Below are positions 11,536-54,106 of a DNA stretch of 64,000 bases, one piece after another. The notes under the pieces were generated by a model that saw only the letters and a list, made by a program, of their open reading frames with translations, was not told the DNA's origin and ran no database searches. Each line of letters begins with the position of its first letter. Position 1 is the first letter of the stretch. The translations under genes were made by a program, and so were the position numbers. Source of the stretch: Omphalotus guepiniiformis (lineage: Eukaryota; Basidiomycota; Agaricomycetes; Agaricales; Omphalotaceae); NCBI GenBank assembly GCA_028554645.1, contig JAQOOI010000066.1, forward strand, positions 62,001-126,000, read 5' to 3'.

Positions 11536-13379
11536 TGTAGTGACTATGAAATGAACGAGAGAGATACTCAAATGAGCACAATCCAACTCAAATCAAAATG
11601 ATGTAGGGTGAGGTGTGACTGGCGTTGTCAGAGATTCCGCACAGTTAGACGCAACAATTGAACTTCGAATCTGCAGGGTTACAGATGCCTTTATCTCAAT
11701 CTGGGTGAAAAATGGCAGAGGGTATCTCAAAACACAAGATTCAGACTGAAGGTAAGGGTGGTTTTCAGGGTTCAGGAGGGATTCAGGACAATCAATCTCG
11801 ATGTTTAAACTCGATCCAATGGTCAGACAATGCAGGGAACAGTTTCAGATGCAGCACAGACAGTTTCAGCAGGCAGATTCAGCACAGACAGAACAGCAGT
11901 TTCAGCAAAGATTCAGTATCTCTTTCAATTTATCTGCCACAAGGGACTTTACAGAAGTTTTCACAACTGGATATTTCTCGAACTGAACTCTAAAGAGCCA
12001 GGCTATATTTCGTCTAAGAAGGGTTTCCTGCTTTGGCTTGTAGCTTTGGGCAGTACTTGCTTAAGAAAATCTAAATAGATACTCTGTAAACTATATATAC
12101 TAAATCATAAAATCAAACATATATCTCGAAATTAAAAGAGTAATCTGAACAGTAAATGAGTCAAAAGTAAGTAAGTATCAATTGAGCAGAGATTGGATTC
12201 TTTTTAGGTAGTTTTCTAGGTAATTTTCCAGTTAGATAGTCAAAATGTAGGAACTTTGGGTATAGATTGGTATAAAAACAGAAATATATCGCTTTGTCCG
12301 CGTTCTAGGTGTGTTAGGGCGTACCCAGGGTATCTAAATAAAGGTCCAGATCCTGTAAATAGCAACCAGTATCCTGACAGGTGACATTCTCCTTAGTGCA
12401 TTGCAAATCTGGTCCCCTATAAGTTTCTCCAAAATTGGCACATCCTCCTCTACTAGGGCAGCATTAGGAGTTGTGTAGAAGCTCTAGAGCTTATCTAGAC
12501 CATGCTTCATCGTTTCTATCAGCCACAGTAAGGTACAGTAACTGTTTATTTCAAGTTTTACCCCTATACATCTCTTTTTGGTCAGATTTGTACTCAGGTT
12601 ATATTTCTTGTTTAGGATAGCTCCCAGCTTCTCCTAGGACAGTATTCTATCCCATAGTTTCGTCTAAGACCTCCAATTAGAGCGCCTTTGTCTTTTATCA
12701 AGTTCAGAGGGTTACTGAATTTCAGAGAGATACTCAGATCCAGAGAGATACTCATTTTCAGTATCTAACTCCTTCCAGCATGAGTATTGAGTATCTAACT
12801 CATTTGTGCAGATGTAACTTTTGAATCTACTTCCCTTATTACACAGATTGGCATTTCATCTCAGTGACATTATATCCACATAGTACTCAATGTACAATAT
12901 TTCTCTGGTAATACAATCTTCAAGATTGCCCATATTCTCAGCATTCAATCTTATAGTGCCAACTTAGTTAGCAAGACCAGCTGGAACTTTTGATCAGTCC
13001 AAAGGACTTAGATAGTTGTTCAATTGAAGTGAAAATCCATCAACCCCTTGGATTACAGTCAACAACACTTGGTAGAGTCTCTAGTTATTAGAGGGTGGGT
13101 CTGACCAACTCAATCTGGTATGGAACATGGGAATTCCAACACATCTGGAGAGGCATAACTAGTATCTCTTTGTATAACCCATTGGTCACAGTTGCTTAGT
13201 ACCAGATTCAGTACTGTAGCAAACACTACACTTAGGTATTGTGAGTACAAGTATGTTTCATGTCTTAACTAGCAGTCTGGGGTGACTCTAGTCCTTTATG
13301 TTCAGTTTCCAATGCTTGAACATTCCATATTTACTTCAATCTGATAGATTTCAGTACTGAAAGGCTTTTTGACGCAACA
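11536..13379 (-). repeat. Ty3 element copy 1, 3' LTR
   Basis: The 1,844-bp LTR is bounded by TG...CA and matches 26224-28067 with no difference that I could see. A TATATATA stretch on the sense strand at about 12088-12096 is a possible core promoter. Two GAGTATCTAACT motifs are at 12759-12772 and 12789-12801. On the plus strand the LTR end rich in CAGATTCAG/CAGTTTCAG words (about 11830-11910) forms an imperfect short repeat. Confidence 0.95.
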
Positions 13380-13390
13380 TCTCCCCCAAA
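13380..13390 (-). other. Polypurine tract of Ty3 copy 1
   Basis: On the sense strand TTTGGGGGAGA directly precedes the 3' LTR start TGTTGCG. This is the expected place and composition for the plus-strand priming site of reverse transcription. Confidence 0.8.
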
Positions 13391-13683
13391 GTAAAATAAG
13401 ATCGTCCTCGATCGTACCAGATTGGCCAAAATCGAGTTAGATACAATTATTACTAGCAGATTGGTCATAGAAGCACATTTCGTACTGTTCAATATCACAA
13501 TATCACGTCTCACGGACTGCCTTCAGGCAAAACTTTTCTCGATTGATCGCCAGTCAATACATTTACATCGGCATGTGACGGCAATGTCAGACTTCGGCGA
13601 AACCCGCAATCTACTTCTGTCGAAGTTTCGACTTAAACAGACAGTGATTCTCGTTTTCTCTTCACATCTCACTTCGTCCCCCG

Positions 13684-16209
13684 ATGGATGACTTTTCAAG
13701 GCAATTGGCTTCCTCTATCACTCTCAGTAGGGAGCCTTCCGAGGTACCGGTAAGTCCTTTTTAATTCCTTTCTCTCACGCGCTGCTTTTCACAGTGTGTC
13801 ACATATATATTCGAGAACCGCTCTCAATTGACGGCCTCTTTCTTTTCTTTTCCCTCTCACAGCTCTCAGACATGAACGAAGAGGATTACAAGGCTCTTTC
13901 CGCCATCGTTTCAAGGCTAGGCGACTTGGACCGACGTCTACGGGACCAATCGTTCAAGGAGTTTGGAAAGGGTCTTAGGTTGAGGACCATTACATCCGCT
14001 TTCGACGACTTGAATCTCGCCTTGGTAGGCATCCTTTCTTTTCATCTTCGTTATAGCTAACCTCATCTTTACAGACTCGCATTGCTTTAACATTTAATCG
14101 GTCCCAGCGAGCACATACACATCTCCCCGACTATTTTACCGGTTCTTTTCTTTCTGTATGCAATCTCGCTTTATGGCTTCATCAGGCCAAACCGACTTCA
14201 TTTATTGTGCCGCCCTGGGGGCTAAATCGCGCTAAACTTGATTCTTTCTGCCTCAAGTATACAGTAAGTATCTCTCAGACTGGTTTTCATTTCTTTTGCT
14301 AACTCTTTACAGCTTCGCAATTTGTGGGAACCACTACCTCCATTTCCTAAGCTTAAGCAAACTCCGCAGCTCGAGGAAGACAACGACGACGATGAGATCT
14401 TACTCCCGCCTCTCGCCACACTTGCTTCGTCCGCCAAGGTTGCTCGCGCTGAATCTTCGAAGGTTTCGGCACCGGTTTCAAAACCAAAGCCAAAGCCAAA
14501 GCCAAAGGCCAAGACTAGTGTAACGCCCTTACCGGGTCGTTCGGTATGTCTTTTTTTCTTTTTGTTTGAAGAGGTCCCTCTTATTTTATCATTTTTAGAT
14601 GAAACGCAAGATCTCCGACGTTGAAGCCACGGCCGAATCTACTGAGCTGACCGACGACGATGATACTGACTTCGAGTCCGAGAACTCTGAGCCTCCGGTC
14701 AAGAAGTCTCGCGTTTCTGAGGGTAAGAAGCCTGCAGCTGCAGCTTCAAAGGTACGTTTCCTTATAGATTTATTTATTCTTTTCTCATGTTTTCTTACAC
14801 AGGGCAAGGGTAAACAGGTGGTCAAGCCAAAACCAAAGATTCGGAAGATGCGTGTGGAAGAGCCTGCCGATGAACCAGCGTCTCGAAAGACTCGCTCCAA
14901 GGCGACTTCAATTACTGTTCCTGCATCCAGCGACGAGGAAGAGGATAAGAAGGAAGATGAGAAAGCAGTCAAGACTGAGGGTACTAAAGCCCCAGTCAAT
15001 CTTAACGTCGACTTCGAGGCACCTCTATGGGCTTCTCGCGCTGATTTCTCTACTTCTTCTGTTTCTCTTGCTCCGGGCACTCGTTACGAGGCCCCAAATC
15101 TTCAAGTAAGTCTTGTCATTTCTTTTTATTTCATTTCCTTTTACTGACCATGTCTTTCCTTAGCGATCGGATGGACGAACACCTCAAAATCGTGCGAAGG
15201 AGGACTTTGAAGCGATACCCGGTAAGTATCTCTTTTATTTCATTTTTCTAGTGTTTGTTTAACGGTTCTTTTACAGGCCGTGTTGTCTTTGGATGGCCTT
15301 ATGGCCGTCCTGTTACTTTACAGCAACTCGTTTCAGTCAACCGCACATTCGATAGGGTGAGTATCTTTCTGACTCGAGACTAATACCCGCTAAATTTTCT
15401 TTTCGTCACTCTTTTAGTTCTTCGGCGACTCCATTTGTGCTGCCTGCGTCGGCGGTACTCACACTGAAGGTAGAGAATGCCGTCCTCAGTTCAACAGCAA
15501 GACTTTCGAATGGCGCTGCGCGACTTGCGCGAAGGACAATCATACCTGTAGCTGGTCGTACGGTTTGGAAGGCAGCGATCAGTTGCGATGCCTTTCATAC
15601 ACATTGGCTCGCAGCGGCAGTACAGGTAAGTATTCCTTTCATTTCTTTAGACATCTTTTATTAAAGGTTCTTCGTTTCTTAGTTGTCTCTCAGGAAGCTG
15701 AGCAGTTGCAGATTCTCATCGACACCTACGAGGACATGCAGAACAGCGTCTCCGCGCAGATGCGGGCGATGGAACGGGTACACCGAACGATTTTGCAGCG
15801 TCAAGATCATATCAAAGCTTCGTGTCGCGATCCTCGTCTCGTTTTACATCAGGTTCAGACTGGCGACCCGACGTTCGACTATTCGGACGAACAGCTCAAA
15901 CTACTGGCTACCGCGCTTGGATGGGACATCAACCTGGTGTCTCGGGCCAGCTACATTGCTAGGAACGAAGCAGGTCATTTCATCGTGGTGGATCCAGAGG
16001 TCGAGCCGCAGCCCGGTCCTTCCAATATCCGTTCCACTCCCGTTGCTACAGCTGACATCGACGAATCGCCTCAGGCGGTCGGTGCTTCGCAAGTCACGGT
16101 CGAAGAGGACGAAGACAAGGAAGACGAGCTGGAGGAGGAGACAGCCGGCAAGGTACTGGTGCCAGAAAGCAGTCCACTAGCTGGGAGGGACGATCCCCTC
16201 TCAGAGTGA
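13684..16209 (+). CDS. Antisense cargo gene A of Ty3 copy 1: ten-exon Cys-motif protein, about 658 aa
   Basis: Exons 13684-13749, 13863-14024, 14075-14263, 14313-14543, 14599-14751, 14803-15105, 15164-15221, 15277-15356, 15418-15625 and 15683-16209 join in frame with GT...AG introns, mostly 49-61 bp. Features in order: an N-terminal region with LGDLDRRLRDQSF; acidic and Lys/Pro-rich linkers (a PK repeat at the end of exon 4); a basic nuclear-signal-like PPVKKSRVSEGKK in exon 5; a cysteine module in exon 9 with C421, C424, C435 and C448, C451, C458 (CX2CX10C and CX2CX6C); a coiled coil starting EAEQLQILIDTYEDM; and an acidic Glu/Asp tail. The Cys pattern resembles zinc-binding modules of unknown-function proteins common in agaricomycetes. 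It runs against gag-pol, so its introns survive retrotransposition. It is CpG-rich, unlike gag-pol. Function unknown; a nuclear DNA- or chromatin-binding role is only an inference. Confidence 0.8.
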
Positions 16210-16946
16210 CTTTCAAGGCTCGGGTGCACGCATAGTTCGTACCCCTTTTTCCCTTTACTTTCTCCATCTCTCAGTCCCAATCTCACAGATCTGTCGCTTT
16301 CTTCGATTGGCTGGGACCTGCCGTATCCGTTCGTATTTCGTCGCGGGTAGCCTTGGTGTTCAACACACCAGGTTGCCCAAATATATATATCTTAACGTAT
16401 CGTTTACTCGCAGATACTCCCTGTACTTACTTTATAGTAGTATAGGTCAAAGTATCTTTATCATAGTCCTGAGCTTTTATGCTCAAAAATATATATCTCA
16501 TTTTTCTTGGTATGAATCTGGTGTGAAACCTAAGAAATCAATTTGAGAGTCTCCTTCAAATTGAGTATCTAACTCGATTTTAGAGGGAGACAATTCTTTA
16601 AATGACTTAAGCCCACAATTTTCAATAAGTATCATTTCTTTTTTGAGGATACATTGAATTTAATAAGTCCTTTCTGTCAAGGTTGAGAGCTTTTCGATTA
16701 CTCGGCAATGCTATTCGGCTAAGTCCTCTGCGGTCAAAGCTGTCTAGATCTCCAGATTTGAGATATTTGAAATTTCAAAAATTCAAAATTTTTGGCCTTG
16801 TAAACTTTGTGTGCTCTCTCCCCCCAAGTAAAATTAACTTCAACGTCCCCGTTGATCAATCTGCTACGCTGGCTAGGCCTCATTGTGCCTGTTTGAACAG
16901 CATAGGAGTAATGACCAACTTGCAGATTTAGACGGGGTAGACCAGA
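16210..16946. other. Spacer between cargo genes A and B
   Basis: AT-rich spacer with no gene. It contains one GAGTATCTAACTC motif (16563-16575) and the likely promoter of gene B at its right end. Confidence 0.5.
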
Positions 16947-16953
16947 TATAAAA
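16947..16953 (+). promoter_or_regulatory. TATA box of cargo gene B
   Basis: TATAAAA lies about 100 bp upstream of the gene B ATG (17050), with a following pyrimidine-rich leader (ccttccacttttatc). Position and sequence fit a fungal core promoter, which suggests gene B has its own promoter instead of relying on the LTR. Confidence 0.5.
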
Positions 16954-17049
16954 GGTGCAGCGCAGATTCGGAACGACTCAGCACCATCTATCACTTGGTT
17001 CTACAACCCTTCCACTTTTATCATTTCTCTATCTCTATATTTTACAGTT

Positions 17050-18452
17050 ATGGCCCCTAAAGGTCCCAAGACTTGGCCTGAGCGTCCTGAGTGGGTTGCC
17101 ACAACGCAGCGATATCTTTCTCGAGCTACTGGAGCCATGGAGGCCAAAGATGCGGATACTGAACTGCTTGGGATGCTTATTACAGCCCTTGCTAGTCATC
17201 TTGTAAATGTTCAATCTTTGATTCCAGGTCCAGTATCTAACTTGATTTCTTATTACAGAAGAAGTCTCTGCCTGCATATGCGGTTGCTAAGTCTGAGGAA
17301 GCGTTCACTTTGTTCGACAAAGGTGTCAATCTGGTCGCAGATGCAGTCAAAAAGTTCCCATCTGTAGGTGAACCTGACACTTTCTCCGCCATTAAAGCTT
17401 TCCGGGACGACTTGGCAAAGCGCAGAGAGACTCTCAGTGGGTCTAAGAAGCGCAAAGTACGTTTTTGTTGACCATCCCTCTCATTTCGAGTATCTAACTG
17501 CCTATCGGTGTGTAGCCAGCTAAAACTCCCGAACTTATTGAGGATGATGATGATGACGATGAAGAGATTGAGGTCATTACTGGTGACGGAGACGTTACTG
17601 TAAGTATCTAACTCCTTGGTTACTGAGTATCTAACTCAAATCCCAACATGGTCTTTCTTTTCTCAGATGGCAGATGGACCTTCCCTTGGGCTTTCTGCGT
17701 CGATCCACGCTCCCAATAAGGATAACAAGGACTCTAGCAAGGACAAAACCAAAGGTTCTCCCACTACTACCACAGTTCATAAGTCTTCCAAGGAAAAAGT
17801 AGTAATTACTTCTCCAAGGGTAAGCAGATTTATGTTCAGAACTGTTCATTTCGTTTCTCTTGACTGATGTACCTTGGTAACTTTTCAGGCTACCTCAGTT
17901 GGACCCAAAGATGTAAGTTTTTAGTTCCATCTGGAGTTGCTCAAGTAGTTCCATGTACTGATCATAAATGTTCTTGCAGAATGAACCTATTCCTGAGCCC
18001 CACAAGGTGATTGTCATGAAGAAGCCTCGGATTGAGAACCCAATCGTCAACCTTAGAGAGGAGACAGACCGTGAGTAGTCACCCAATCTGCGGGTTTTTC
18101 GAGTATCTAACTCAATTATCCTGCAGATGAGCGCAAACTCCGGGAGAGTGGAGAAGAGATTGTGACTCGTATCACTGCTCTGTTCCCTTTCATGGACTTG
18201 GACCACTTCTCTCCTGAGGTTCTTCAATCAATTTCCAACTTCTTGAAGACAGAACTCAGTGTTCATCAACATGCCATTCAGTATCATCATTCTCAGTACA
18301 GATTTGCCTACAAGGAGTTTTCCCGTCTGGAATTGCTCCGAAGACAGAAGGAGAAGGCTTACAGGGCCAACCAGAGTCCCTTGGAGTCTGGTCCAGGTAC
18401 TGCTGATGATCCAGCTCCTTTCCATGCATTTCCATCTGCAGACATTCTCTGA
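17050..18452 (+). CDS. Antisense cargo gene B of Ty3 copy 1: seven-exon acidic/basic protein, 342 aa
   Basis: Exons 17050-17202, 17259-17456, 17516-17599, 17667-17819, 17889-17912, 17980-18070 and 18127-18452 join in frame with 56-69 bp GT...AG introns. The protein starts MAPKGPKTWPERPEWVATTQ and has a helical N-terminal region (ELLGMLITALASHL, then FDKGVNLVADAVKKFPSVGE). Then come a GSKKRK nuclear-signal-like patch, a run of Asp/Glu, a Ser/Thr/Lys-rich linker, and a C-terminal helical region rich in His, Gln and Arg (SNFLKTELSVHQHAIQYHH, then SRLELLRRQKEKAYRANQ). Introns 1, 2, 3 and 6 carry the (A/G)GTATCTAACT motif as probable branch site. I recognise no family. Its 3' end faces the end of pol about 200 bp away, so convergent transcripts could overlap. 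Confidence 0.75.
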
Positions 18453-18654
18453 CTTTAATGTTACATCTGGACATCTCAGTATCATTTATGGGCAGTTTAC
18501 ACGGTATTGGTACATCGTATAGGACATCCTCAGACACCCTTTATGTTTATCTTAGTAGTGCATACTACTGTTACCCACTTTTTACTTTCATCTGCAACTA
18601 GGTAGTCACTTTTTCAGTGTCTATCTCGTACTTTGTTCAAATATAGTGTGTTTA

Positions 18655-21600
18655 TCATTTATTTTGTGAAGATTGGGACCTAGTCTGGACTGGAGCGTCC
18701 CAATCTGGTTCTTCTTCATCTGCATCGTTTGCAGATTGTAGTTCTTCATCACTGGACTCATCAAGATCTTCATCTTCAGCAGGAATTCTCAGTTGAGGAA
18801 TACTGTCAAAGATGTAATCTCTCTCAAGTTCAGGGTCTAGCTCATTGTTATCATTGACCATCTCTTCTAGTTGTTCACTAGTCAAGTCTATAAGTTCATG
18901 AATGTTCTCAGGCAGTTGAATTGGTTCATATCTAGCTACATGGGGTAGCACTCTGAAGGCAGCAACCTTTTCTCTGAGCACTGTACCATCCATCTGGGCC
19001 ATAATGTAGGATCCCCCTTTGGTTCTCCTTATTACAATCATGGGTCCCAGGTATCTAGGATACATTTTTCTGTCCAAGTTCTTCTCAACTTGTGTATTTC
19101 TGACTTGTATAAGTGTACCAGGTTTGAAATCAAAATCTCTGATAACATTTCTGTATTCTTCTTCATATTGTCTAAGAGTCTCTTTCTTGGTTGTATCAAT
19201 TCTAGATATCATCTCCTGCACATGGGTTCTATGCTTAGCTAGAGCTTGAGCTCTGTAGCCAATAAGTTCCTCATATGTCAAGGTTCTATCTGGAAGTTTT
19301 ACTAACCATGTAGATTCAACAATATCCAAGGGTAGGATAGGTTCAGCTCCAGTAACAAGGAAGTATGGTGAACATCCAAGTCCTTTTCTAGCTGTAATTC
19401 TATCTGCCCAGAAGACATGTTTGAGAAACCACCACCATCTCTTTAGATCTCCACCTGTAGCTTTTGCCAAGGCAGTTCTAATGTCAAAGTGGGCTCTCTC
19501 AATCTTGCCATTTGCTTGGGAATTGTAAGGAGATATAGTAATTCCTTTAATTCCATATTTATCTTCTAGCCATTTAAGCATAGCTCGCATCTGGGGTGCA
19601 TTATCAGTTACTACTTCATCCGGACATCCCCATCTGCATATAATATCATCAAAGAACCATTCCCCCAATGATCTAGCATTGTCAGATCTTAAGGCTCTTC
19701 CTTCAGACCAGGATGAGAGTGCACATCTGCCATGTACAACATCCTTGCAACCATTACTTGGAGGTGATACTTTAAATACATCCACATGAATCTTCTGAAA
19801 CAGGGAGGGAGTGTGTGTAAGAGTGGGAGGAATCTTCAACAATTCTAATTTTCGGTTCTGGCAGATTTGGCAGGATTTGACAAACCAATTGACATCTCCA
19901 TTCAAATCTGGCCACCAAAAACGCTTCTCTATGAGAGCTTTTGTTGCAAACATTCCTTTATGTCCCAGATGGTCATGAGCAGCATGCATCATGTACATCC
20001 TTTTCTCTTTAGGCACAACCAGTCTATGCTGGCCTCCTGTATCATCATTCCTTCTATAGAGTCTCCCATCTCTGTCTACAAAGAACTTTACAGCCCTGGA
20101 AATGAACTTTTTCATAGCAGTCTCACCTAGGTGAGCTAGAGGCTGATTGCCCTGCAGGTACCAATCTTTGATTAGGTCGAGTTGTTCATCCAGTTCCTTT
20201 GTAGATGCAGATCTGTGATCCTCTCTATATGGGTGTTCATGTTTCCATTCAGTACCTCCTTCAGGTATAACCAAGGTCTGTGCAAACTGCAACATCGAGT
20301 TAGATACTGGATGTTGAATTGCTAACAGCTCTCTAATGGAATTCAAGTGACGTTCTTCTTCAAGAGCTTCTTGCAAATCGTCTTCAAAGTCGTCTATTGA
20401 CTTTGCAACTTCCTGCAAGTAACCACCTCGAGTATCTATTTCATCTTTAAAGGCTTCAAAATCAAAGGGTACCTCAGATTCACCATCTCCCATTCTGAAT
20501 TTCACCGGCAGACCATCATCTTCATCAACAAATGAATCCGGATCTCTAGATGCCGCTCTTTCAGTTGGTATGGTTCCTCTAGGTGGTCTAGATAGTCCAT
20601 CTGGTCCCTTATGTTCAGTGCCCTTGATGTGTACCAAGGTGAAGTGGAACTTCCTTATTTCTTCAATCCATCTGTTTATAGTTGCATTGGGACCACTACT
20701 GGGTTTGTCAAGCATTCCTTTAATATAGCTTGCATCTGTTTCCACAGTAAGATCCCTACATCCATATGTCTGGTAATATGTTTGTTGTAAGGCCAACATC
20801 AAGCCATATAGTTCTCTCTTGGGTTGAGAAAACCTTGCTTCTCTCTCATTTAAAGTAATGGAACCCATCCAGTTGTAGAACTTTTTCTTTGAATCTGCAG
20901 GGTCTCTCTGATATAGTTGGAAACCTACTGCCATCCAGGAAGTATCTACTGAAAGGGTGATTCCAGTACTTAAATCATAGTCAATAGGACGGAGTGCTGG
21001 AGCATTCCTAATCCCATCTTTAATCATTTCTACAGCTTCCAGTTCTGCAGGACCCATTTGAAAAGGTACATCTCCAGTTAAGATTGTCAAAGGTCTTGCT
21101 TTCTTGGCATAATCCTTTATGAACATCCTCATCTGACCAGCAGTGCCCAAAAATGACCGGATGTCTTTCTTCTCAGACCATTTTGATGCATCACAAGTCA
21201 GAACAACTTCAGCTAACTTTTCCACTGGCTTTTCTCCCTCATAACTGACATGATGTCCAACAACATCACCTTCAGCTACACAGATGAAAGCTTTGGTCCC
21301 TGCAAAGGTACCACCAGCATGTTTCATTCTTTGCACAATTCTGTTCATATTCTGCAGATGCTCCCACACAAATCTTCTGATGCCAGAATTTTCAGGGATA
21401 GTTTCATAACCTCCATCTGCAGTTTCATATCTGCTGACAGGCCCTTTTACTGGTACATCATCAATGTAAGGTTTAGTTACATGTGGAATTTCATCTCTGA
21501 AGATATATGTAACATCATCATGATAGATAGGGACAGAGTTTGTCCAACCCATAGGTAACTTCACTAATCTATGTGGGCCAAAAGGTGTTTGGAAGGTGGT

Positions 21601-22698
21601 AAGATCTCTTGAACTTTCATCAACCAGCCTCTCATCATACCCAACAAAGATATCCAGTAAACCCAAACATGCTCTTCCAGAGAAGCTTCTAGCTATATCT
21701 GCAGTTGCAGGAGGAATTCCTGAATGTTGAATAGTCACTTTATTGAGTGGTTCTAAACTATGGACCAATCTTAAGCTTTTCCCATCTTTCTTTAAGACAC
21801 AGAACCATCTGGATCTATAGGATGAACTGGAAGGCTCATATACACCAGCATCTATTTTGTCCTTAATCATTTTACACACTTGATCATAGATCCCTGGAGG
21901 TATAGGAATATTCCTTTCTACCCAAGGGGTGTGTGGTAACACTGGAAACTTTACTGGAGGAAAGAACTCTGTATTAAAGGTTCCTCCTTCAGATGCTTCC
22001 CATGCAAATGCTTTTTCTTGGACTTTCATAAGATGGTGTACAAGTTTCATTTCTTCAGGCCATAAGAAACCTTCATTATGATTCTTGTCTACAATTTCTT
22101 TTCTTTCTTGAGAGTACCTCTCACCAGGAGTGAAATCTGGAGGATGAGTAGGTAACTCAGGCATATCTTTTAACGGATCTCCAATTATTTTTCTTTCAAT
22201 CCGGAACTCCGCAGGTAAGGTAGCTTTAACAGGTTTGACCTTAATAGCAACTGGTTTGTACTTTCTAGAAGCCAAAACAGTCACCAATCTGGCCATTTTG
22301 TTGCCATTCTTATCTCTACTCCATCTGGGTCTTGAAGATTGGACAGGTTTAGGTTCCCTTTTGACCTTTTTACCCTTATTCATCCTCTTTTCAGTTCCAG
22401 ATGCAGGTTCCGAAGTGTGATTAAGTACCGTGCAAGTATCTAAGTCTGGATTCTGAGTATCTAAGTGCTCTTTTGAATTCAAATTTAAATTTTCTCGCCA
22501 AGTACAGAACACTTGTTTCTTTTCTGAGTCTACAGACCGATTTAAATACGATCTAACCGAATCTGCAGCCGCTATATCGTTTTCTCTTATGATGGATTCA
22601 GCTGCAAACACAAATGCCTCAGCCTTTTCAGGTTCTGAAAACAATTCATTGTCTGGCAGCTTATATCCAGCAATTGTGGCATTGCCATCTTCATCCAT
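18655..22698 (-). CDS. Pol of Ty3 copy 1: reverse transcriptase, RNase H, integrase
   Basis: The frame has 1,347 codons from the first ATG (22698), and is open upstream into the protease overlap, so it is probably made by -1 frameshifting. RT: SLRLVHSLEPLNKVT, LDIFVGYDERLV, TTFQTPFGPHRLVKLPMGWT and the catalytic YIDD at 411-414. RNase H: LSVDTSWMAVGFQLY, SQPKRELYGLM and VETDAS, ending GPDGLSRPP. Integrase: zinc finger H908, H913, C943, C946; catalytic D973, D1032, E1067; then a GPY/F-type segment YLGPMIVIRR. The C-terminus is acidic (EDEDLDESSDEEL...) and I see no chromodomain. The RT block closely fits a Ty3 group common in agaricomycetes. The reading frame is intact. The only amino-acid difference I saw from copy 2 is Met versus Val in GGSYI(M/V)AQMDG. 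Confidence 0.95.
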   Translation of the reverse strand: MDEDGNATIAGYKLPDNELFSEPEKAEAFVFAAESIIRENDIAAADSVRSYLNRSVDSEKKQVFCTWRENLNLNSKEHLDTQNPDLDTCTVLNHTSEPASGTEKRMNKGKKVKREPKPVQSSRPRWSRDKNGNKMARLVTVLASRKYKPVAIKVKPVKATLPAEFRIERKIIGDPLKDMPELPTHPPDFTPGERYSQERKEIVDKNHNEGFLWPEEMKLVHHLMKVQEKAFAWEASEGGTFNTEFFPPVKFPVLPHTPWVERNIPIPPGIYDQVCKMIKDKIDAGVYEPSSSSYRSRWFCVLKKDGKSLRLVHSLEPLNKVTIQHSGIPPATADIARSFSGRACLGLLDIFVGYDERLVDESSRDLTTFQTPFGPHRLVKLPMGWTNSVPIYHDDVTYIFRDEIPHVTKPYIDDVPVKGPVSRYETADGGYETIPENSGIRRFVWEHLQNMNRIVQRMKHAGGTFAGTKAFICVAEGDVVGHHVSYEGEKPVEKLAEVVLTCDASKWSEKKDIRSFLGTAGQMRMFIKDYAKKARPLTILTGDVPFQMGPAELEAVEMIKDGIRNAPALRPIDYDLSTGITLSVDTSWMAVGFQLYQRDPADSKKKFYNWMGSITLNEREARFSQPKRELYGLMLALQQTYYQTYGCRDLTVETDASYIKGMLDKPSSGPNATINRWIEEIRKFHFTLVHIKGTEHKGPDGLSRPPRGTIPTERAASRDPDSFVDEDDGLPVKFRMGDGESEVPFDFEAFKDEIDTRGGYLQEVAKSIDDFEDDLQEALEEERHLNSIRELLAIQHPVSNSMLQFAQTLVIPEGGTEWKHEHPYREDHRSASTKELDEQLDLIKDWYLQGNQPLAHLGETAMKKFISRAVKFFVDRDGRLYRRNDDTGGQHRLVVPKEKRMYMMHAAHDHLGHKGMFATKALIEKRFWWPDLNGDVNWFVKSCQICQNRKLELLKIPPTLTHTPSLFQKIHVDVFKVSPPSNGCKDVVHGRCALSSWSEGRALRSDNARSLGEWFFDDIICRWGCPDEVVTDNAPQMRAMLKWLEDKYGIKGITISPYNSQANGKIERAHFDIRTALAKATGGDLKRWWWFLKHVFWADRITARKGLGCSPYFLVTGAEPILPLDIVESTWLVKLPDRTLTYEELIGYRAQALAKHRTHVQEMISRIDTTKKETLRQYEEEYRNVIRDFDFKPGTLIQVRNTQVEKNLDRKMYPRYLGPMIVIRRTKGGSYIMAQMDGTVLREKVAAFRVLPHVARYEPIQLPENIHELIDLTSEQLEEMVNDNNELDPELERDYIFDSIPQLRIPAEDEDLDESSDEELQSANDADEEEPDWDAPVQTRSQSSQNK

Positions 22699-22733
22699 TT
22701 CAATACAAACAGCTACCTCTCCCTGATCTCTTA

Positions 22734-24131
22734 TCAGTTCATTGAGGTCCGATGAAAATTTTGAGAGTCTCCCTCATTTTTCACAGGGACACTCGCAGAT
22801 TTCTGTGTTTCTGGGACAAGCTTTGGTTCACCAGGAATAGGTTTAACCTTGATTCCTCTACCTCTGTCATATGTTCCCATTGTACACTTCATTCCACTGT
22901 TTGGATCTGTAATGGTGATCTCTTGTTCTCCAGTTTCAAAGTTTCTGACTACACTGCTTGTTAACACATCAAATGGTCTTCCCAAAAGAACATCATAAGG
23001 CACTTTATCTATTATGTGAATCTGCATATAGATAGTCATTTCTCCAAAGGTAAATGGTACATTTCTTGCTAGTCCCCTAGTAGCCTGTAATTGACCATTT
23101 GCACTTTGCATATGGATCACAGTCTCTGGGTCCCATCTTAAACCAAGTCCAATAGCTACTCTTGTATCCATGGACACGATTTGAGAACCACTATCAACTA
23201 CTGTCTCAACTTGTTGATCAGAGTGATTAATCTTTGGGTAGATTGCCTTTAGACTGTCAGTCTGGCTGGCTACTATAATGATCTTGTCCCTCTCATCTGG
23301 AGGTACATCTTTCTGATACTGGTCCACAACATCCTTGTGTACCACTGAGCCTTTCTTAAGGTCATCTGTGTCTTCATCTAGGACAATAAACACATCTTCC
23401 CTTTCATAGGCCATATCTTCAATAAAGACCATATAATTTGCCTGTACCAGATTGACATCTTCTTCTGGTAGAATACCATCAGGATCATCTTCATCCCTTA
23501 CTTCATGAACAAAAGCCTTTACAGGACGCTTATACACCCTGTTGTTCTTCAATTTTCTCTGCATAATCTTCTGAAGTGCCGGAGATATAGCAATGAGGTC
23601 CCCACTACTTATATCTATCTCAGATCTAAAGATTTTGTCTGCAATTTCTTCTGCTAGACCCGGTTTGAATAGTGAGTTTCTAAGCTTGAAATCGGGCTCA
23701 GATTTACGCGGAGGCTTTGTGTATACAATAGCATTCCTTGTATCATTACTCATTCCATCTTTAGTTCCAGATTGAGCTCCTTCAGTCTCATTTGACTTAT
23801 TCTGGCTCCCTACAGGCATTCCCTTTGGTATAGGTGGCCTATCTATTGCCTTTACGTGATCAAACGGACGGTTAGATACTCTCCGTGCAACATCGTTGTT
23901 ATTTTCAGAGGGAGATTCAATCTCCTCAGTGTCAGAATCAACGGGTAGTTCAAAACGAACGGGCTCTTTTCTCATAGCAGGGGGTCTGTATTTCTCCCTT
24001 TCAGATGGTCTTAGTGTAGGTAGTAACACTTCAACTCTCTTTTTCTTTACAAGTTTATTTTCCTCAGGAGATTGACCTGTTTTGTGAGAAGGATTCTGAG
24101 TATATACAGCTTCTTCACCAATCTCCTTCAT
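22734..24131 (-). CDS. Aspartic protease frame (Pro) of Ty3 copy 1
   Basis: A separate 465-codon frame lies between Gag and Pol. The N-terminal two thirds are charged and low in complexity (LRPSEREKYRPPAMRKEP and similar). The catalytic motif is DSGSQ at 313-317, followed by MDTRVAIGLGL and the retropepsin-type ILGRP-like segment VLLGRPFDVLT. It cuts Gag and Pol into mature proteins. The frame is -1 relative to Gag and +1 relative to Pol. Its ATG lies 8 bases after the Gag stop, so either re-initiation or -1 frameshifting at TCG_AAA_AAC_TAG could express it. A separate pro frame is unusual for a Ty3 element. Confidence 0.9.
   Translation of the reverse strand: MKEIGEEAVYTQNPSHKTGQSPEENKLVKKKRVEVLLPTLRPSEREKYRPPAMRKEPVRFELPVDSDTEEIESPSENNNDVARRVSNRPFDHVKAIDRPPIPKGMPVGSQNKSNETEGAQSGTKDGMSNDTRNAIVYTKPPRKSEPDFKLRNSLFKPGLAEEIADKIFRSEIDISSGDLIAISPALQKIMQRKLKNNRVYKRPVKAFVHEVRDEDDPDGILPEEDVNLVQANYMVFIEDMAYEREDVFIVLDEDTDDLKKGSVVHKDVVDQYQKDVPPDERDKIIIVASQTDSLKAIYPKINHSDQQVETVVDSGSQIVSMDTRVAIGLGLRWDPETVIHMQSANGQLQATRGLARNVPFTFGEMTIYMQIHIIDKVPYDVLLGRPFDVLTSSVVRNFETGEQEITITDPNSGMKCTMGTYDRGRGIKVKPIPGEPKLVPETQKSASVPVKNEGDSQNFHRTSMN
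22755..22761 (-). promoter_or_regulatory. -1 frameshift (slippery) site between protease and Pol, copy 1
   Basis: In the protease frame the sequence reads CAA_AAT_TTT, giving the heptamer A_AAT_TTT of the X_XXY_YYZ type. It lies in the short overlap where the -1 (Pol) frame is already open: Pol opens just after a TGA about 9 bases upstream of the heptamer, and the protease frame stops about 20 bases downstream of it. Slipping here joins protease to Pol without needing the Pol ATG. Confidence 0.65.
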
Positions 24132-24139
24132 TGGAAACT

Positions 24140-26050: not shown

Positions 26051-26203
26051 ACTCTAAGTTATAAAACTTATAGATGGTTCAACAACTTCAAGGAAATTGT
26101 TGCTAAGTGAGGAACAGGGCAAAGTTCAACACAGAAAAAGTCCAGATTTATTTCCAGACACGTGTAAATACACAGATAGTTCAATTATCAAGTCTAAAGC
26201 CAC

Positions 26204-26221
26204 CCCTCGCGGTGGGCTCCA
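26204..26221 (-). other. Primer-binding site of Ty3 copy 1
   Basis: Two bases inside the 5' LTR the sense strand reads TGGAGCCCACCGCGAGGG, the complement of a tRNA 3' end finishing in ...GGGCTCCA. The implied acceptor strand GGTGGGC plus U73 and CCA is tRNA-like. I cannot name the tRNA without the host tRNA set. Confidence 0.75.
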
Positions 26222-26223
26222 GA

Positions 26224-28067
26224 TGTAGTGACTATGAAATGAACGAGAGAGATACTCAAATGAGCACAATCCAACTCAAATCAAAATGATGTAGGGTGAG
26301 GTGTGACTGGCGTTGTCAGAGATTCCGCACAGTTAGACGCAACAATTGAACTTCGAATCTGCAGGGTTACAGATGCCTTTATCTCAATCTGGGTGAAAAA
26401 TGGCAGAGGGTATCTCAAAACACAAGATTCAGACTGAAGGTAAGGGTGGTTTTCAGGGTTCAGGAGGGATTCAGGACAATCAATCTCGATGTTTAAACTC
26501 GATCCAATGGTCAGACAATGCAGGGAACAGTTTCAGATGCAGCACAGACAGTTTCAGCAGGCAGATTCAGCACAGACAGAACAGCAGTTTCAGCAAAGAT
26601 TCAGTATCTCTTTCAATTTATCTGCCACAAGGGACTTTACAGAAGTTTTCACAACTGGATATTTCTCGAACTGAACTCTAAAGAGCCAGGCTATATTTCG
26701 TCTAAGAAGGGTTTCCTGCTTTGGCTTGTAGCTTTGGGCAGTACTTGCTTAAGAAAATCTAAATAGATACTCTGTAAACTATATATACTAAATCATAAAA
26801 TCAAACATATATCTCGAAATTAAAAGAGTAATCTGAACAGTAAATGAGTCAAAAGTAAGTAAGTATCAATTGAGCAGAGATTGGATTCTTTTTAGGTAGT
26901 TTTCTAGGTAATTTTCCAGTTAGATAGTCAAAATGTAGGAACTTTGGGTATAGATTGGTATAAAAACAGAAATATATCGCTTTGTCCGCGTTCTAGGTGT
27001 GTTAGGGCGTACCCAGGGTATCTAAATAAAGGTCCAGATCCTGTAAATAGCAACCAGTATCCTGACAGGTGACATTCTCCTTAGTGCATTGCAAATCTGG
27101 TCCCCTATAAGTTTCTCCAAAATTGGCACATCCTCCTCTACTAGGGCAGCATTAGGAGTTGTGTAGAAGCTCTAGAGCTTATCTAGACCATGCTTCATCG
27201 TTTCTATCAGCCACAGTAAGGTACAGTAACTGTTTATTTCAAGTTTTACCCCTATACATCTCTTTTTGGTCAGATTTGTACTCAGGTTATATTTCTTGTT
27301 TAGGATAGCTCCCAGCTTCTCCTAGGACAGTATTCTATCCCATAGTTTCGTCTAAGACCTCCAATTAGAGCGCCTTTGTCTTTTATCAAGTTCAGAGGGT
27401 TACTGAATTTCAGAGAGATACTCAGATCCAGAGAGATACTCATTTTCAGTATCTAACTCCTTCCAGCATGAGTATTGAGTATCTAACTCATTTGTGCAGA
27501 TGTAACTTTTGAATCTACTTCCCTTATTACACAGATTGGCATTTCATCTCAGTGACATTATATCCACATAGTACTCAATGTACAATATTTCTCTGGTAAT
27601 ACAATCTTCAAGATTGCCCATATTCTCAGCATTCAATCTTATAGTGCCAACTTAGTTAGCAAGACCAGCTGGAACTTTTGATCAGTCCAAAGGACTTAGA
27701 TAGTTGTTCAATTGAAGTGAAAATCCATCAACCCCTTGGATTACAGTCAACAACACTTGGTAGAGTCTCTAGTTATTAGAGGGTGGGTCTGACCAACTCA
27801 ATCTGGTATGGAACATGGGAATTCCAACACATCTGGAGAGGCATAACTAGTATCTCTTTGTATAACCCATTGGTCACAGTTGCTTAGTACCAGATTCAGT
27901 ACTGTAGCAAACACTACACTTAGGTATTGTGAGTACAAGTATGTTTCATGTCTTAACTAGCAGTCTGGGGTGACTCTAGTCCTTTATGTTCAGTTTCCAA
28001 TGCTTGAACATTCCATATTTACTTCAATCTGATAGATTTCAGTACTGAAAGGCTTTTTGACGCAACA
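26224..28067 (-). repeat. Ty3 element copy 1, 5' LTR
   Basis: This 1,844-bp LTR is equal in length to 11536-13379 with no difference seen on reading, which indicates a very recent insertion. It drives the genomic RNA towards decreasing coordinates. Confidence 0.95.
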
Positions 28068-41263: not shown

Positions 41264-41567
41264 TCTCCCCCAAAGTAAAATAAGATCGTCCTCGATCGTA
41301 CCAGATTGGCCAAAATCGAGTTAGATACAATTATTACTAGCAGATTGGTCATAGAAGCACATTTCGTACTGTTCAATATCACAATATCACGTCTCACGGA
41401 CTGCCTTCAGGCAAAACTTTTCTCGATTGATCGCCAGTCAATACATTTACATCGGCATGTGACGGCAATGTCAGACTTCGGCGAAACCCGCAATCTACTT
41501 CTGTCGAAGTTTCGACTTAAACAGACAGTGATTCTCGTTTTCTCTTCACATCTCACTTCGTCCCCCG

Positions 41568-44093
41568 ATGGATGACTTTTCAAGGCAATTGGCTTCCTCT
41601 ATCACTCTCAGTAGGGAGCCTTCCGAGGTACCGGTAAGTCCTTTTTAATTCCTTTCTCTCACGCGCTGCTTTTCACAGTGTGTCACATATATATTCGAGA
41701 ACCGCTCTCAATTGACGGCCTCTTTCTTTTCTTTTCCCTCTCACAGCTCTCAGACATGAACGAAGAGGATTACAAGGCTCTTTCCGCCATCGTTTCAAGG
41801 CTAGGCGACTTGGACCGACGTCTACGGGACCAATCGTTCAAGGAGTTTGGAAAGGGTCTTAGGTTGAGGACCATTACATCCGCTTTCGACGACTTGAATC
41901 TCGCCTTGGTAGGCATCCTTTCTTTTCATCTTCGTTATAGCTAACCTCATCTTTACAGACTCGCATTGCTTTAACATTTAATCGGTCCCAGCGAGCACAT
42001 ACACATCTCCCCGACTATTTTACCGGTTCTTTTCTTTCTGTATGCAATCTCGCTTTATGGCTTCATCAGGCCAAACCGACTTCATTTATTGTGCCGCCCT
42101 GGGGGCTAAATCGCGCTAAACTTGATTCTTTCTGCCTCAAGTATACAGTAAGTATCTCTCAGACTGGTTTTCATTTCTTTTGCTAACTCTTTACAGCTTC
42201 GCAATTTGTGGGAACCACTACCTCCATTTCCTAAGCTTAAGCAAACTCCGCAGCTCGAGGAAGACAACGACGACGATGAGATCTTACTCCCGCCTCTCGC
42301 CACACTTGCTTCGTCCGCCAAGGTTGCTCGCGCTGAATCTTCGAAGGTTTCGGCACCGGTTTCAAAACCAAAGCCAAAGCCAAAGCCAAAGGCCAAGACT
42401 AGTGTAACGCCCTTACCGGGTCGTTCGGTATGTCTTTTTTTCTTTTTGTTTGAAGAGGTCCCTCTTATTTTATCATTTTTAGATGAAACGCAAGATCTCC
42501 GACGTTGAAGCCACGGCCGAATCTACTGAGCTGACCGACGACGATGATACTGACTTCGAGTCCGAGAACTCTGAGCCTCCGGTCAAGAAGTCTCGCGTTT
42601 CTGAGGGTAAGAAGCCTGCAGCTGCAGCTTCAAAGGTACGTTTCCTTATAGATTTATTTATTCTTTTCTCATGTTTTCTTACACAGGGCAAGGGTAAACA
42701 GGTGGTCAAGCCAAAACCAAAGATTCGGAAGATGCGTGTGGAAGAGCCTGCCGATGAACCAGCGTCTCGAAAGACTCGCTCCAAGGCGACTTCAATTACT
42801 GTTCCTGCATCCAGCGACGAGGAAGAGGATAAGAAGGAAGATGAGAAAGCAGTCAAGACTGAGGGTACTAAAGCCCCAGTCAATCTTAACGTCGACTTCG
42901 AGGCACCTCTATGGGCTTCTCGCGCTGATTTCTCTACTTCTTCTGTTTCTCTTGCTCCGGGCACTCGTTACGAGGCCCCAAATCTTCAAGTAAGTCTTGT
43001 CATTTCTTTTTATTTCATTTCCTTTTACTGACCATGTCTTTCCTTAGCGATCGGATGGACGAACACCTCAAAATCGTGCGAAGGAGGACTTTGAAGCGAT
43101 ACCCGGTAAGTATCTCTTTTATTTCATTTTTCTAGTGTTTGTTTAACGGTTCTTTTACAGGCCGTGTTGTCTTTGGATGGCCTTATGGCCGTCCTGTTAC
43201 TTTACAGCAACTCGTTTCAGTCAACCGCACATTCGATAGGGTGAGTATCTTTCTGACTCGAGACTAATACCCGCTAAATTTTCTTTTCGTCACTCTTTTA
43301 GTTCTTCGGCGACTCCATTTGTGCTGCCTGCGTCGGCGGTACTCACACTGAAGGTAGAGAATGCCGTCCTCAGTTCAACAGCAAGACTTTCGAATGGCGC
43401 TGCGCGACTTGCGCGAAGGACAATCATACCTGTAGCTGGTCGTACGGTTTGGAAGGCAGCGATCAGTTGCGATGCCTTTCATACACATTGGCTCGCAGCG
43501 GCAGTACAGGTAAGTATTCCTTTCATTTCTTTAGACATCTTTTATTAAAGGTTCTTCGTTTCTTAGTTGTCTCTCAGGAAGCTGAGCAGTTGCAGATTCT
43601 CATCGACACCTACGAGGACATGCAGAACAGCGTCTCCGCGCAGATGCGGGCGATGGAACGGGTACACCGAACGATTTTGCAGCGTCAAGATCATATCAAA
43701 GCTTCGTGTCGCGATCCTCGTCTCGTTTTACATCAGGTTCAGACTGGCGACCCGACGTTCGACTATTCGGACGAACAGCTCAAACTACTGGCTACCGCGC
43801 TTGGATGGGACATCAACCTGGTGTCTCGGGCCAGCTACATTGCTAGGAACGAAGCAGGTCATTTCATCGTGGTGGATCCAGAGGTCGAGCCGCAGCCCGG
43901 TCCTTCCAATATCCGTTCCACTCCCGTTGCTACAGCTGACATCGACGAATCGCCTCAGGCGGTCGGTGCTTCGCAAGTCACGGTCGAAGAGGACGAAGAC
44001 AAGGAAGACGAGCTGGAGGAGGAGACAGCCGGCAAGGTACTGGTGCCAGAAAGCAGTCCACTAGCTGGGAGGGACGATCCCCTCTCAGAGTGA
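41568..44093 (+). CDS. Antisense cargo gene A of Ty3 copy 2
   Basis: The ten exons lie 27,884 bp to the right of those of copy 1 (41568-41633, 41747-41908, 41959-42147, 42197-42427, 42483-42635, 42687-42989, 43048-43105, 43161-43240, 43302-43509, 43567-44093). The coding sequence appears unchanged, including the two Cys clusters and all splice sites. Two intact copies of a ten-exon gene in two independent insertions show that the cargo moves with the element. Confidence 0.8.
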
Positions 44094-44933
44094 CTTTCAA
44101 GGCTCGGGTGCACGCATAGTTCGTACCCCTTTTTCCCTTTACTTTCTCCATCTCTCAGTCCCAATCTCACAGATCTGTCGCTTTCTTCGATTGGCTGGGA
44201 CCTGCCGTATCCGTTCGTATTTCGTCGCGGGTAGCCTTGGTGTTCAACACACCAGGTTGCCCAAATATATATATCTTAACGTATCGTTTACTCGCAGATA
44301 CTCCCTGTACTTACTTTATAGTAGTATAGGTCAAAGTATCTTTATCATAGTCCTGAGCTTTTATGCTCAAAAATATATATCTCATTTTTCTTGGTATGAA
44401 TCTGGTGTGAAACCTAAGAAATCAATTTGAGAGTCTCCTTCAAATTGAGTATCTAACTCGATTTTAGAGGGAGACAATTCTTTAAATGACTTAAGCCCAC
44501 AATTTTCAATAAGTATCATTTCTTTTTTGAGGATACATTGAATTTAATAAGTCCTTTCTGTCAAGGTTGAGAGCTTTTCGATTACTCGGCAATGCTATTC
44601 GGCTAAGTCCTCTGCGGTCAAAGCTGTCTAGATCTCCAGATTTGAGATATTTGAAATTTCAAAAATTCAAAATTTTTGGCCTTGTAAACTTTGTGTGCTC
44701 TCTCCCCCCAAGTAAAATTAACTTCAACGTCCCCGTTGATCAATCTGCTACGCTGGCTAGGCCTCATTGTGCCTGTTTGAACAGCATAGGAGTAATGACC
44801 AACTTGCAGATTTAGACGGGGTAGACCAGATATAAAAGGTGCAGCGCAGATTCGGAACGACTCAGCACCATCTATCACTTGGTTCTACAACCCTTCCACT
44901 TTTATCATTTCTCTATCTCTATATTTTACAGTT

Positions 44934-46335
44934 ATGGCCCCTAAAGGTCCCAAGACTTGGCCTGAGCGTCCTGAGTGGGTTGCCACAACGCAGCGATATC
45001 TTTCTCGAGCTACTGGAGCCATGGAGGCCAAAGATGCGGATACTGAACTGCTTGGGATGCTTATTACAGCCCTTGCTAGTCATCTTGTAAATGTTCAATC
45101 TTTGATTCCAGGTCCAGTATCTAACTTGATTTCTTATTACAGAAGAAGTCTCTGCCTGCATATGCGGTTGCTAAGTCTGAGGAAGCGTTCACTTTGTTCG
45201 ACAAAGGTGTCAATCTGGTCGCAGATGCAGTCAAAAAGTTCCCATCTGTAGGTGAACCTGACACTTTCTCCGCCATTAAAGCTTTCCGGGACGACTTGGC
45301 AAAGCGCAGAGAGACTCTCAGTGGGTCTAAGAAGCGCAAAGTACGTTTTTGTTGACCATCCCTCTCATTTCGAGTATCTAACTGCCTATCGGTGTGTAGC
45401 CAGCTAAAACTCCCGAACTTATTGAGGATGATGATGATGACGATGAAGAGATTGAGGTCATTACTGGTGACGGAGACGTTACTGTAAGTATCTAACTCCT
45501 TGGTTACTGAGTATCTAACTCAAATCCCAACATGGTCTTTCTTTTCTCAGATGGCAGATGGACCTTCCCTTGGGCTTTCTGCGTCGATCCACGCTCCCAA
45601 TAAGGATAACAAGGACTCTAGCAAGGACAAAACCAAAGGTTCTCCCACTACTACCACAGTTCATAAGTCTTCCAAGGAAAAAGTAGTAATTACTTCTCCA
45701 AGGGTAAGCAGATTTATGTTCAGAACTGTTCATTCGTTTCTCTTGACTGATGTACCTTGGTAACTTTTCAGGCTACCTCAGTTGGACCCAAAGATGTAAG
45801 TTTTTAGTTCCATCTGGAGTTGCTCAAGTAGTTCCATGTACTGATCATAAATGTTCTTGCAGAATGAACCTATTCCTGAGCCCCACAAGGTGATTGTCAT
45901 GAAGAAGCCTCGGATTGAGAACCCAATCGTCAACCTTAGAGAGGAGACAGACCGTGAGTAGTCACCCAATCTGCGGGTTTTTCGAGTATCTAACTCAATT
46001 ATCCTGCAGATGAGCGCAAACTCCGGGAGAGTGGAGAAGAGATTGTGACTCGTATCACTGCTCTGTTCCCTTTCATGGACTTGGACCACTTCTCTCCTGA
46101 GGTTCTTCAATCAATTTCCAACTTCTTGAAGACAGAACTCAGTGTTCATCAACATGCCATTCAGTATCATCATTCTCAGTACAGATTTGCCTACAAGGAG
46201 TTTTCCCGTCTGGAATTGCTCCGAAGACAGAAGGAGAAGGCTTACAGGGCCAACCAGAGTCCCTTGGAGTCTGGTCCAGGTACTGCTGATGATCCAGCTC
46301 CTTTCCATGCATTTCCATCTGCAGACATTCTCTGA
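44934..46335 (+). CDS. Antisense cargo gene B of Ty3 copy 2
   Basis: Exons 44934-45086, 45143-45340, 45400-45483, 45551-45703, 45772-45795, 45863-45953 and 46010-46335 match those of copy 1. The single-base deletion relative to copy 1 is in the fourth intron, so the predicted 342-residue protein is the same. The TATAAAA box is at 44831-44837. Confidence 0.75.
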
Positions 46336-46537
46336 CTTTAATGTTACATCTGGACATCTCAGTATCATTTATGGGCAGTTTACACGGTATTGGTACATCG
46401 TATAGGACATCCTCAGACACCCTTTATGTTTATCTTAGTAGTGCATACTACTGTTACCCACTTTTTACTTTCATCTGCAACTAGGTAGTCACTTTTTCAG
46501 TGTCTATCTCGTACTTTGTTCAAATATAGTGTGTTTA

Positions 46538-50581: not shown

Positions 50582-50616
50582 TTCAATACAAACAGCTACC
50601 TCTCCCTGATCTCTTA

Positions 50617-52014: not shown

Positions 52015-52022
52015 TGGAAACT

Positions 52023-54086: not shown

Positions 54087-54104
54087 CCCTCGCGGTGGGC
54101 TCCA
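54087..54104 (-). other. Primer-binding site of Ty3 copy 2
   Basis: Same 18 bases as copy 1, two bases inside the 5' LTR. Confidence 0.75.
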
Positions 54105-54106
54105 GA

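Follow-up and report, generated by a model that had tools for sequence, protein, structure and literature searches.

Two intron-rich genes lie inside a long terminal repeat (LTR) retrotransposon of the basidiomycete Omphalotus guepiniiformis, on the strand opposite to its genomic RNA, and the question raised by this locus is whether they are working parts of the element and, if so, what they may do for it. The stretch analysed (the window) comprises 64,000 nucleotides (nt) of contig JAQOOI010000066.1 (assembly GCA_028554645.1, positions 62,001 to 126,000, forward strand) and contains two Ty3-order LTR elements of about 16.5 kb each (element 1, 11536-28067; element 2, 39420-55950), both of which read on the minus strand. 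Each carries between pol and the 3′ LTR, on the plus strand and opposite to gag, protease and pol, a cassette of two genes which, to judge from their sequences, are real genes under purifying selection.

Gene models

A preliminary description of this DNA had placed two genes, of ten and seven exons, antisense between pol and the 3′ LTR, with normal splice sites, in-frame junctions and both genes intact in both copies of the window. The gene models agree with it on all these points, including the predicted proteins of 658 and 342 amino acids. It was right about the cassette region, but the feature start that it gave, 13380, is the edge of the LTR, and coding begins at 13684.

13684..16209, plus strand: antisense gene 1, 10 exons, 658 amino acids (exon models; intact in 19/20 copies)
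13684-13749, 13863-14024, 14075-14263, 14313-14543, 14599-14751, plus strand: gene 1 exons 1-5
14803-15105, 15164-15221, 15277-15356, 15418-15625, 15683-16209, plus strand: gene 1 exons 6-10
17050..18452, plus strand: antisense gene 2, 7 exons, 342 amino acids (exon models; intact in 19/20 copies)
17050-17202, 17259-17456, 17516-17599, 17667-17819, 17889-17912, 17980-18070, 18127-18452, plus strand: gene 2 exons
41568..44093, plus strand: gene 1 of element 2 (10/10 exons identical to element 1)
44934..46335, plus strand: gene 2 of element 2 (7/7 exons identical to element 1)

All 15 introns (49-113 nt) have GT-AG borders and can be removed in silico with in-frame joins, 12 of the 15 being in phase 0, and all 17 exons are unchanged in element 2. 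By the logic of reverse transcription, antisense placement would spare introns from the loss that splicing of the genomic RNA would bring.

Copies and selection within the lineage of the window

A DNA search of the assembly with the 5.3-kb region gave at least 31 matches (the best 30 of 104 candidates were scored), 26 of them near full span and 5 partial. The 20 best-scoring of the 31, a set biased toward good copies that includes the two of the window, were aligned and represent what is called here lineage A. Gene 1 is intact in 19 of these 20 copies and gene 2 also in 19, each failure being a single splice site; GT donors are present in 299 of 300 cases and AG acceptors in 299 of 300, and no stop codon or frame-breaking indel was seen in either gene across the aligned copies. 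Truncated copies and copies with stops are present elsewhere in the genome.

Diversity at codon positions 1, 2 and 3 is 0.0138, 0.0088 and 0.0679 in gene 1 (introns, 0.026) and 0.0031, 0.0009 and 0.0237 in gene 2 (introns, 0.034). The mean ratio of nonsynonymous to synonymous diversity (piN/piS) is 0.107 for gene 1, 0.05 for gene 2 and 0.089 for the 3′ end of pol, with a silent diversity of 0.094 in gene 1, 0.035 in gene 2 and 0.041 in pol. Within lineage A, gene 1 alternates between stretches nearly identical to the window copy and patches that are 8-16% diverged from it, as if it were a mosaic of the kind expected from template switching, and the intergenic stretch 16380-16680 differs by 7-9% in most copies; the variable region as a whole spans 13980-16680.

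Diverged lineages and recurrence of the layout

A second lineage, B, was sampled through part of one copy (gene 1 from exon 3 onward, gene 2 complete), which aligns to A exon by exon and retains a GT donor at the corresponding position of 12 among the 13 introns compared; the gene 1 exon 8 junction of this copy would disrupt the frame. The ratio of nonsynonymous to synonymous divergence (dN/dS) between A and B is 0.13 over 567 codons of gene 1 and 0.122 over 339 codons of gene 2, values that are only rough because synonymous divergence (dS; 2.35 in gene 1, 1.47 in gene 2) is near saturation. Chance open reading frames are ruled out by the 19 of 20 intact copies, the codon-position bias and these A-B ratios. 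Another B insertion (C27), with a reverse transcriptase (RT) 98% identical to A, has a dS of 0.336 and a dN/dS of 0.043 over 400 codons of its pol. The cassette has thus diverged far more than pol, at silent sites too, a pattern suggestive of cassette exchange or of homogenisation of pol.

The genome was also searched with gene 2 exon 7, the cysteine-containing exon of gene 1 and an RT fragment (for RT, the best 150 of 348 matches), and 128 gene 2 matches, 87 of 88 gene 1 matches and 150 RT matches were tabulated by position; what follows on neighbouring RT sequences holds among the matches listed. An antisense RT lies 2.2-3.6 kb downstream of gene 2 in 106 of 128 cases, and no same-strand RT was found within 6 kb of gene 2 (0/128). 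The counts by lineage, with approximate identities to A and with gene 1 counted where it lies upstream of gene 2 on the same strand, are as follows.

Lineage A: antisense RT 39/44; gene 1 upstream 34/44
Lineage B (RT 98%, gene 2 81%, gene 1 exon 75%): antisense RT 16/17; gene 1 upstream 9/17
Lineage C (RT 90%, gene 2 33-37%, gene 1 exon 33%): antisense RT 28/35; gene 1 upstream 27/35
Lineage D (RT 85%, gene 2 32%, gene 1 exon 33%): antisense RT 23/30; gene 1 upstream 2/30
Unassigned: antisense RT 0/2; gene 1 upstream 0/2

The pairing of RT and gene 2 identities was taken from example elements (C27; C18 near 314 kb; C20 near 2142 kb), and the low gene 1 count of lineage D may reflect matches at the detection limit. 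The order gene 1, gene 2, antisense pol therefore recurs in four lineages (A-D) of this genome, the LTR side of the cassette having been observed for lineage A. The exon borders of lineages C and D were compared in short pieces of one copy each: in all four lineages the last gene 2 intron ends at one and the same site and phase, and the phase of the intron that follows the cysteine exon of gene 1 is likewise shared, the intron before that exon being absent in D.

Of the points raised in the preliminary description, the two-gene, 17-exon antisense cargo, its intactness in both copies of the window and purifying selection on it are supported. In all, 126 of the 128 gene 2 matches were assigned to lineages A-D, and the other two resemble one broken relic: at C33:7560-7851 and C33:12640-12849 there are pieces of gene 2 that are 58 and 68% identical and a gene 1 exon that is 38% identical, with no RT detected nearby. 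From their sequences, these remnants may be a fifth, broken cassette lineage.

Protein features and relatives

15418..15625, plus strand: gene 1 exon 9, six-cysteine, zinc-cluster-like domain (six Cys in one copy each of A-D)

The six cysteines of gene 1 have the spacing C-x2-C-x8-10-C-x8-12-C-x2-C-x6-C (manual count, one copy per lineage; automatic alignment displaces the third cysteine by a gap), and they are retained though identity to A drops to about 30%. The fungal Zn(2)-Cys(6) cluster has the spacing C-x2-C-x6-C-x5-12-C-x2-C-x6-8-C. The gene 1 pattern resembles it but for a longer first loop, and assignment to that cluster was rejected, the first loop here being of 8-10 residues and Pfam Zn_clus matching one of the four lineage members at E 0.82. 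A single-sequence structural model of the gene 1 C-terminus was uninformative (predicted local distance difference test, pLDDT, 43), and a model of gene 2 exon 7 consists of a short helix and a 53-residue helix (pLDDT 75, from a two-sequence alignment); a fold search with the latter returned 13 matches, none at E up to 0.001. Clusters rich in Lys and Arg are seen by eye in both proteins, between which no similarity was found.

In the public databases, a protein encoded on a 1015-bp ENA contig matches gene 2 exon 7 at 59% identity and apparently reads across the same intron site, so a relative exists, by sequence, outside the copies of this genome. Full-length protein searches with genes 1 and 2 gave no relatives, in a search that sees proteins of similar length and misses exon-sized predictions, and neither viral contigs, searched with pol and also with gene 2 exon 7, nor prokaryote genomes, searched with the exon, yielded anything informative.

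A family motif and its distribution

The 12-base motif AGTATCTAACTC was chosen because its words are the commonest in the element, where the commonest 10-mer occurs 10 times, against at most 6 times in 100 first-order simulations. One LTR plus the internal region holds 20 sites with up to 2 mismatches (30 simulations: mean 1.8, maximum 6), and at the same stringency 31 kb of flanking DNA and 28 kb from eight other LTR loci contain 4 sites each.

12760..12801, plus strand: two exact copies in the LTR, 30 bp apart
16564..16575, plus strand: exact copy between genes 1 and 2
17232..18113, plus strand: five copies in gene 2 introns (exact at 17603, 17626 and 18102; one mismatch at 17232 and 17489)

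The density in gene 2 introns is 13 per kb (5 sites in 374 nt), and in the lineage B piece four exact copies are present, each of them inside a gene 2 intron. The exact motif is found at 644 sites in the whole genome and the reversed pattern at 8; among the first 100 motif sites of the listing, 83 are no more than 14 kb from a gene 2 of lineage A or B, a further 10 belong to 30-bp LTR-type pairs (two of these near a lineage C gene 2) and 7 are elsewhere. A repeat scan listed no tandem arrays of at least 100 bp inside the elements, shorter arrays falling below its range.

A proposed function and its alternatives

The reading that we favour, with a probability of roughly 0.5, is that the cassette is an old accessory unit encoding nuclear, DNA-binding regulators of its own element. 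Each gene would have its own promoter and be transcribed in the direction opposite to the genomic RNA, so that the proteins could be made even when the 5′ LTR is weak; a TATA-like box is seen by eye upstream of gene 2, with a similar one in lineage B.

16950..16957 (approximate), plus strand: TATA-like box upstream of gene 2

The basic clusters would direct both proteins to the nucleus, the gene 1 product with its six-cysteine, zinc-cluster-like domain followed by a probably helical stretch, and the gene 2 product as a partner with a helical, probably coiled-coil, C-terminal domain. Together they would form in trans a sequence-specific complex on the DNA of the element, for which the AGTATCTAACTC boxes in the LTR, the intergenic region and the gene 2 introns are a possible target, and the bound complex could keep the element expressed despite host silencing or tune its transcription. 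What the sequence itself establishes is the genes, their ability to be spliced in silico, purifying selection, the recurring antisense position, the deep divergence and the enrichment of the motif; the promoters, nuclear location, binding of zinc and DNA, partnership, motif target and regulatory effect in this scheme are all things that we infer. The preliminary description had suggested that the proteins might control expression, silencing or targeting of the element, and such a role would fit the sequence evidence.

VANDAL elements are DNA transposons. VANC21 binds a family-specific short motif that is dense in the noncoding parts and introns of its own transposon (PMC5735166), and the present element likewise has a family-specific motif dense in its noncoding DNA. 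By analogy with that precedent, an element could stay active through a short family motif in its own noncoding DNA, and a narrower version of our reading, which we put forward tentatively and would not bet on, is a trans-acting, sequence-specific anti-silencing system in which a two-gene complex recognises the motif and has evolved and been swapped faster than pol. The fast change of the cassette relative to pol fits an anti-silencing role, as in an arms race with the host. The likeness to VANDAL/VANC anti-silencing (PMC5735166, PMC10398659) lies in a family-specific short motif in noncoding regions and introns; the VANDAL elements are of Arabidopsis and are not LTR elements, their motifs are in tandem repeats, and binding has been shown there, whereas the motif described here comes from sequence.

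Several observations weigh against regulators of this kind. Among the best 150 RT matches, 43 have no gene 2 within 4.5 kb, 12 of them in lineages A-D and 31 in a further lineage, E (RT about 73%), where no gene 2 match was found with the A or D query, so that this lineage may either lack the cassette or carry a more diverged one. Pfam searches recognised no domain in the gene 1 and gene 2 proteins, the Zn_clus match is far below significance, and sequence searches of the PDB gave no convincing solved-structure match. As regards the motif, gag-pol accounts for 7 of the 20 loose sites (one of them exact) and gene 1 for none, and the motif bases show no clear excess of conservation over the rest of the noncoding DNA: 1 of 24 motif bases is variable in the LTR, versus 78 of 1476 others; for gene 2 introns the figures are 5 of 60 and 34 of 314; and for the intergenic region, where the motif is the more variable, they are 4 of 24 and 119 of 1322. 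Its intronic copies may also, from their branch-site position, serve splicing: the CTAAC within AGTATCTAACTC lies 15-17 nt from the 3′ splice site in gene 2 introns 1, 2 and 6, and 31 nt from it in intron 3, which has a second copy at 54. That the motif is a branch-site consensus and nothing else was rejected, exact copies being found also in the LTR, the intergenic region and pol, and the gene 1 introns lacking it (0 of 9).

The alternative that survives best is that the proteins act elsewhere, with the integration complex or the particle, steering nuclear entry, target choice or assembly. The basic, nuclear-type clusters would suit such a role, as would the helical gene 2 domain with its 59% identical relative in a public contig and a constraint similar to that of pol; however, antisense transcription units would uncouple the proteins from particle assembly, and the family-restricted motif AGTATCTAACTC would be left without a place, so that we regard this alternative as possible but doubtful.

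It is improbable that the antisense transcripts, and not the proteins, are what matters, either by pairing with the genomic RNA to limit copy number or by feeding RNA interference. Transcription against the genomic RNA would indeed yield complementary RNA, and such a role has been discussed for plant elements (PMC7264820); but the codon-position bias, the lack of any frame-breaking indel in 20 copies, the dN/dS of about 0.13 and the retained cysteines together demand a function at the level of the protein, to which one of the transcripts could be added.

We give equally little credence to a second mobile element nested in the retrotransposon, or fused with it, that left two genes antisense. 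It would account for the internal copy of the 3′ LTR border, which is polypurine-tract-like and immediately precedes gene 2, and for the different divergence of cassette and pol, but, besides the LTRs, no repeat of at least 100 bp brackets the cassette (shorter ones were outside the search), and the cassette has been kept as a working unit in four lineages. Finally, recently captured host genes carried as passengers, a very improbable origin that only the intron richness typical of host genes would recommend, are ruled out by the same layout in four lineages, by the intron sites kept in the copies compared and by the 126 of 128 gene 2 matches that fall within the lineages, no host progenitor being found in the genome at that sensitivity.

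The element pair and other features of the window

Elements 1 and 2 are 99.98% identical across 16.5 kb. Their four LTRs (1844 bp, TG..CA ends) are mutually identical, and the internal regions differ by 2 substitutions and 1 missing base. The 4-bp target duplications are ACGC at element 1 and CCGC at element 2, and these are therefore two separate insertions, both recent; segmental duplication of one element is ruled out by the unlike flanks. On the minus strand, the order is a gag-type frame, an aspartyl protease and a pol in which Pfam finds RT_RNaseH and then Integrase_H2C2, that is, Ty3 order; RVT_1 is not among the Pfam matches of pol at E up to 1, and the RT core was recognised by eye. 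A primer site and a polypurine tract are both present, by eye, at the inner LTR borders, so that paired TG..CA LTRs, target duplication, domain order, primer site and polypurine tract are all those of a Ty3-type element. A sub-threshold match to DUF4100, a family linked to fungi, was also obtained in the Pfam profile search.

11536..13379, minus strand: 3′ LTR of element 1 (1844 bp; 0 mismatches to 26224-28067; TG..CA; flank ACGC)
13380..13412, minus strand: polypurine tract, T-rich box and short inverted repeat adjoining the 3′ LTR (from sequence; near-constant across 20 copies)
16813..16866, minus strand: internal polypurine-tract-like stretch, T-rich box and inverted repeat, upstream of gene 2 (near-constant, 20 copies)
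18655..22698, minus strand: pol, RT/RNase H and H2C2 zinc-binding integrase, 1347 amino acids (frames, Pfam)
22734..24131, minus strand: aspartyl protease frame, 465 amino acids
24140..26050, minus strand: gag-type frame, 636 amino acids (weak zf-CCHC knuckle, E 0.0038, under its cut-off)
26224..28067, minus strand: 5′ LTR of element 1 (TGG-type primer site begins 2 nt internal to the LTR)

The box of polypurine tract, T-rich run and inverted repeat at the 3′ LTR recurs 3.4 kb inside the element, also in lineage B with a partly changed stem. Compared with shuffled sequences, the 3′ copy folds no better (z 0.38) and the internal copy somewhat better (z -1.92). For the internal box at 16813-16866, three identities are conceivable: a central polypurine tract, a shared promoter box, or what is left of an earlier LTR border. 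The gag-type frame has a listed length of 541 amino acids in element 2 (53660) and of 636 in element 1 (25777), and one of the two substitutions between the elements falls in this frame. A repeat array with a 12-base period directly adjoins the 5′ LTR of element 1 (28093-28416), and a 397-bp unit is present in three tandem copies, 97% alike, at 56989-58082.

Relation to known systems and meaning

In plants and in Boty of Botrytis it is accepted that accessory genes can lie antisense in the region from pol to the 3′ LTR (PMC7264820, PMC11963269); such genes are known in Grande, RIRE2, PvRetro13 and the fungal Boty, and have been so for decades, with their function open (PMC7264820). The element described here has this Grande/Retand/Boty-type arrangement, with antisense coding in most copies and the LTR side known from lineage A. 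It shares with the plant Ty3 elements of the Retand lineage, which have antisense TRP28 open reading frames (PMC11963269), a possible DNA-binding accessory protein and a long 3′ internal region, but differs in its two genes, 15 introns and other host group and in its proteins, neither of which gives a TRP28 (PF04195) match when E values up to 1 are admitted. The word "intron" is absent from the main text of the Retand paper (PMC11963269) and of the Grande review (PMC7264820). Maize Grande has an antisense accessory gene, gene23, at the same place, which is driven by a promoter of its own and encodes a nuclear protein (PMC7264820), one gene as against two here in a comparison by description; likewise by description and not by sequence, Boty of Botrytis cinerea, with its antisense brtn, is a fungal LTR element with a single such gene (PMC7264820, PMC8365987). 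The HBZ gene of human T-cell leukaemia virus type 1 (HTLV-1) is also an antisense regulator gene of a reverse-transcribing element, but that of a retrovirus, a single gene of basic leucine zipper (bZIP) type whose transcript starts in the 3′ LTR.

The preliminary description, which took a two-gene, seventeen-exon antisense cargo not to be a standard arrangement, is only partly right on novelty, antisense accessory genes being already known from plants and Boty; what is new, as far as literature searches show, is the intron-rich, two-gene form and its divergence from pol. Among the titles listed, no report of a two-gene, many-intron antisense cassette was found, in a search that most subscription journals lie outside.

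The finding means that intron-rich genes can persist for long through reverse transcription if they are antisense. The family has many copies, recently inserted and with intact ones among them, and it offers four diverged cassettes on related pols, six fixed cysteines and a candidate target motif, so that the question of function becomes a testable one; if it is true that AGTATCTAACTC is the target, this would be a case of self-recognition encoded by a retrotransposon.

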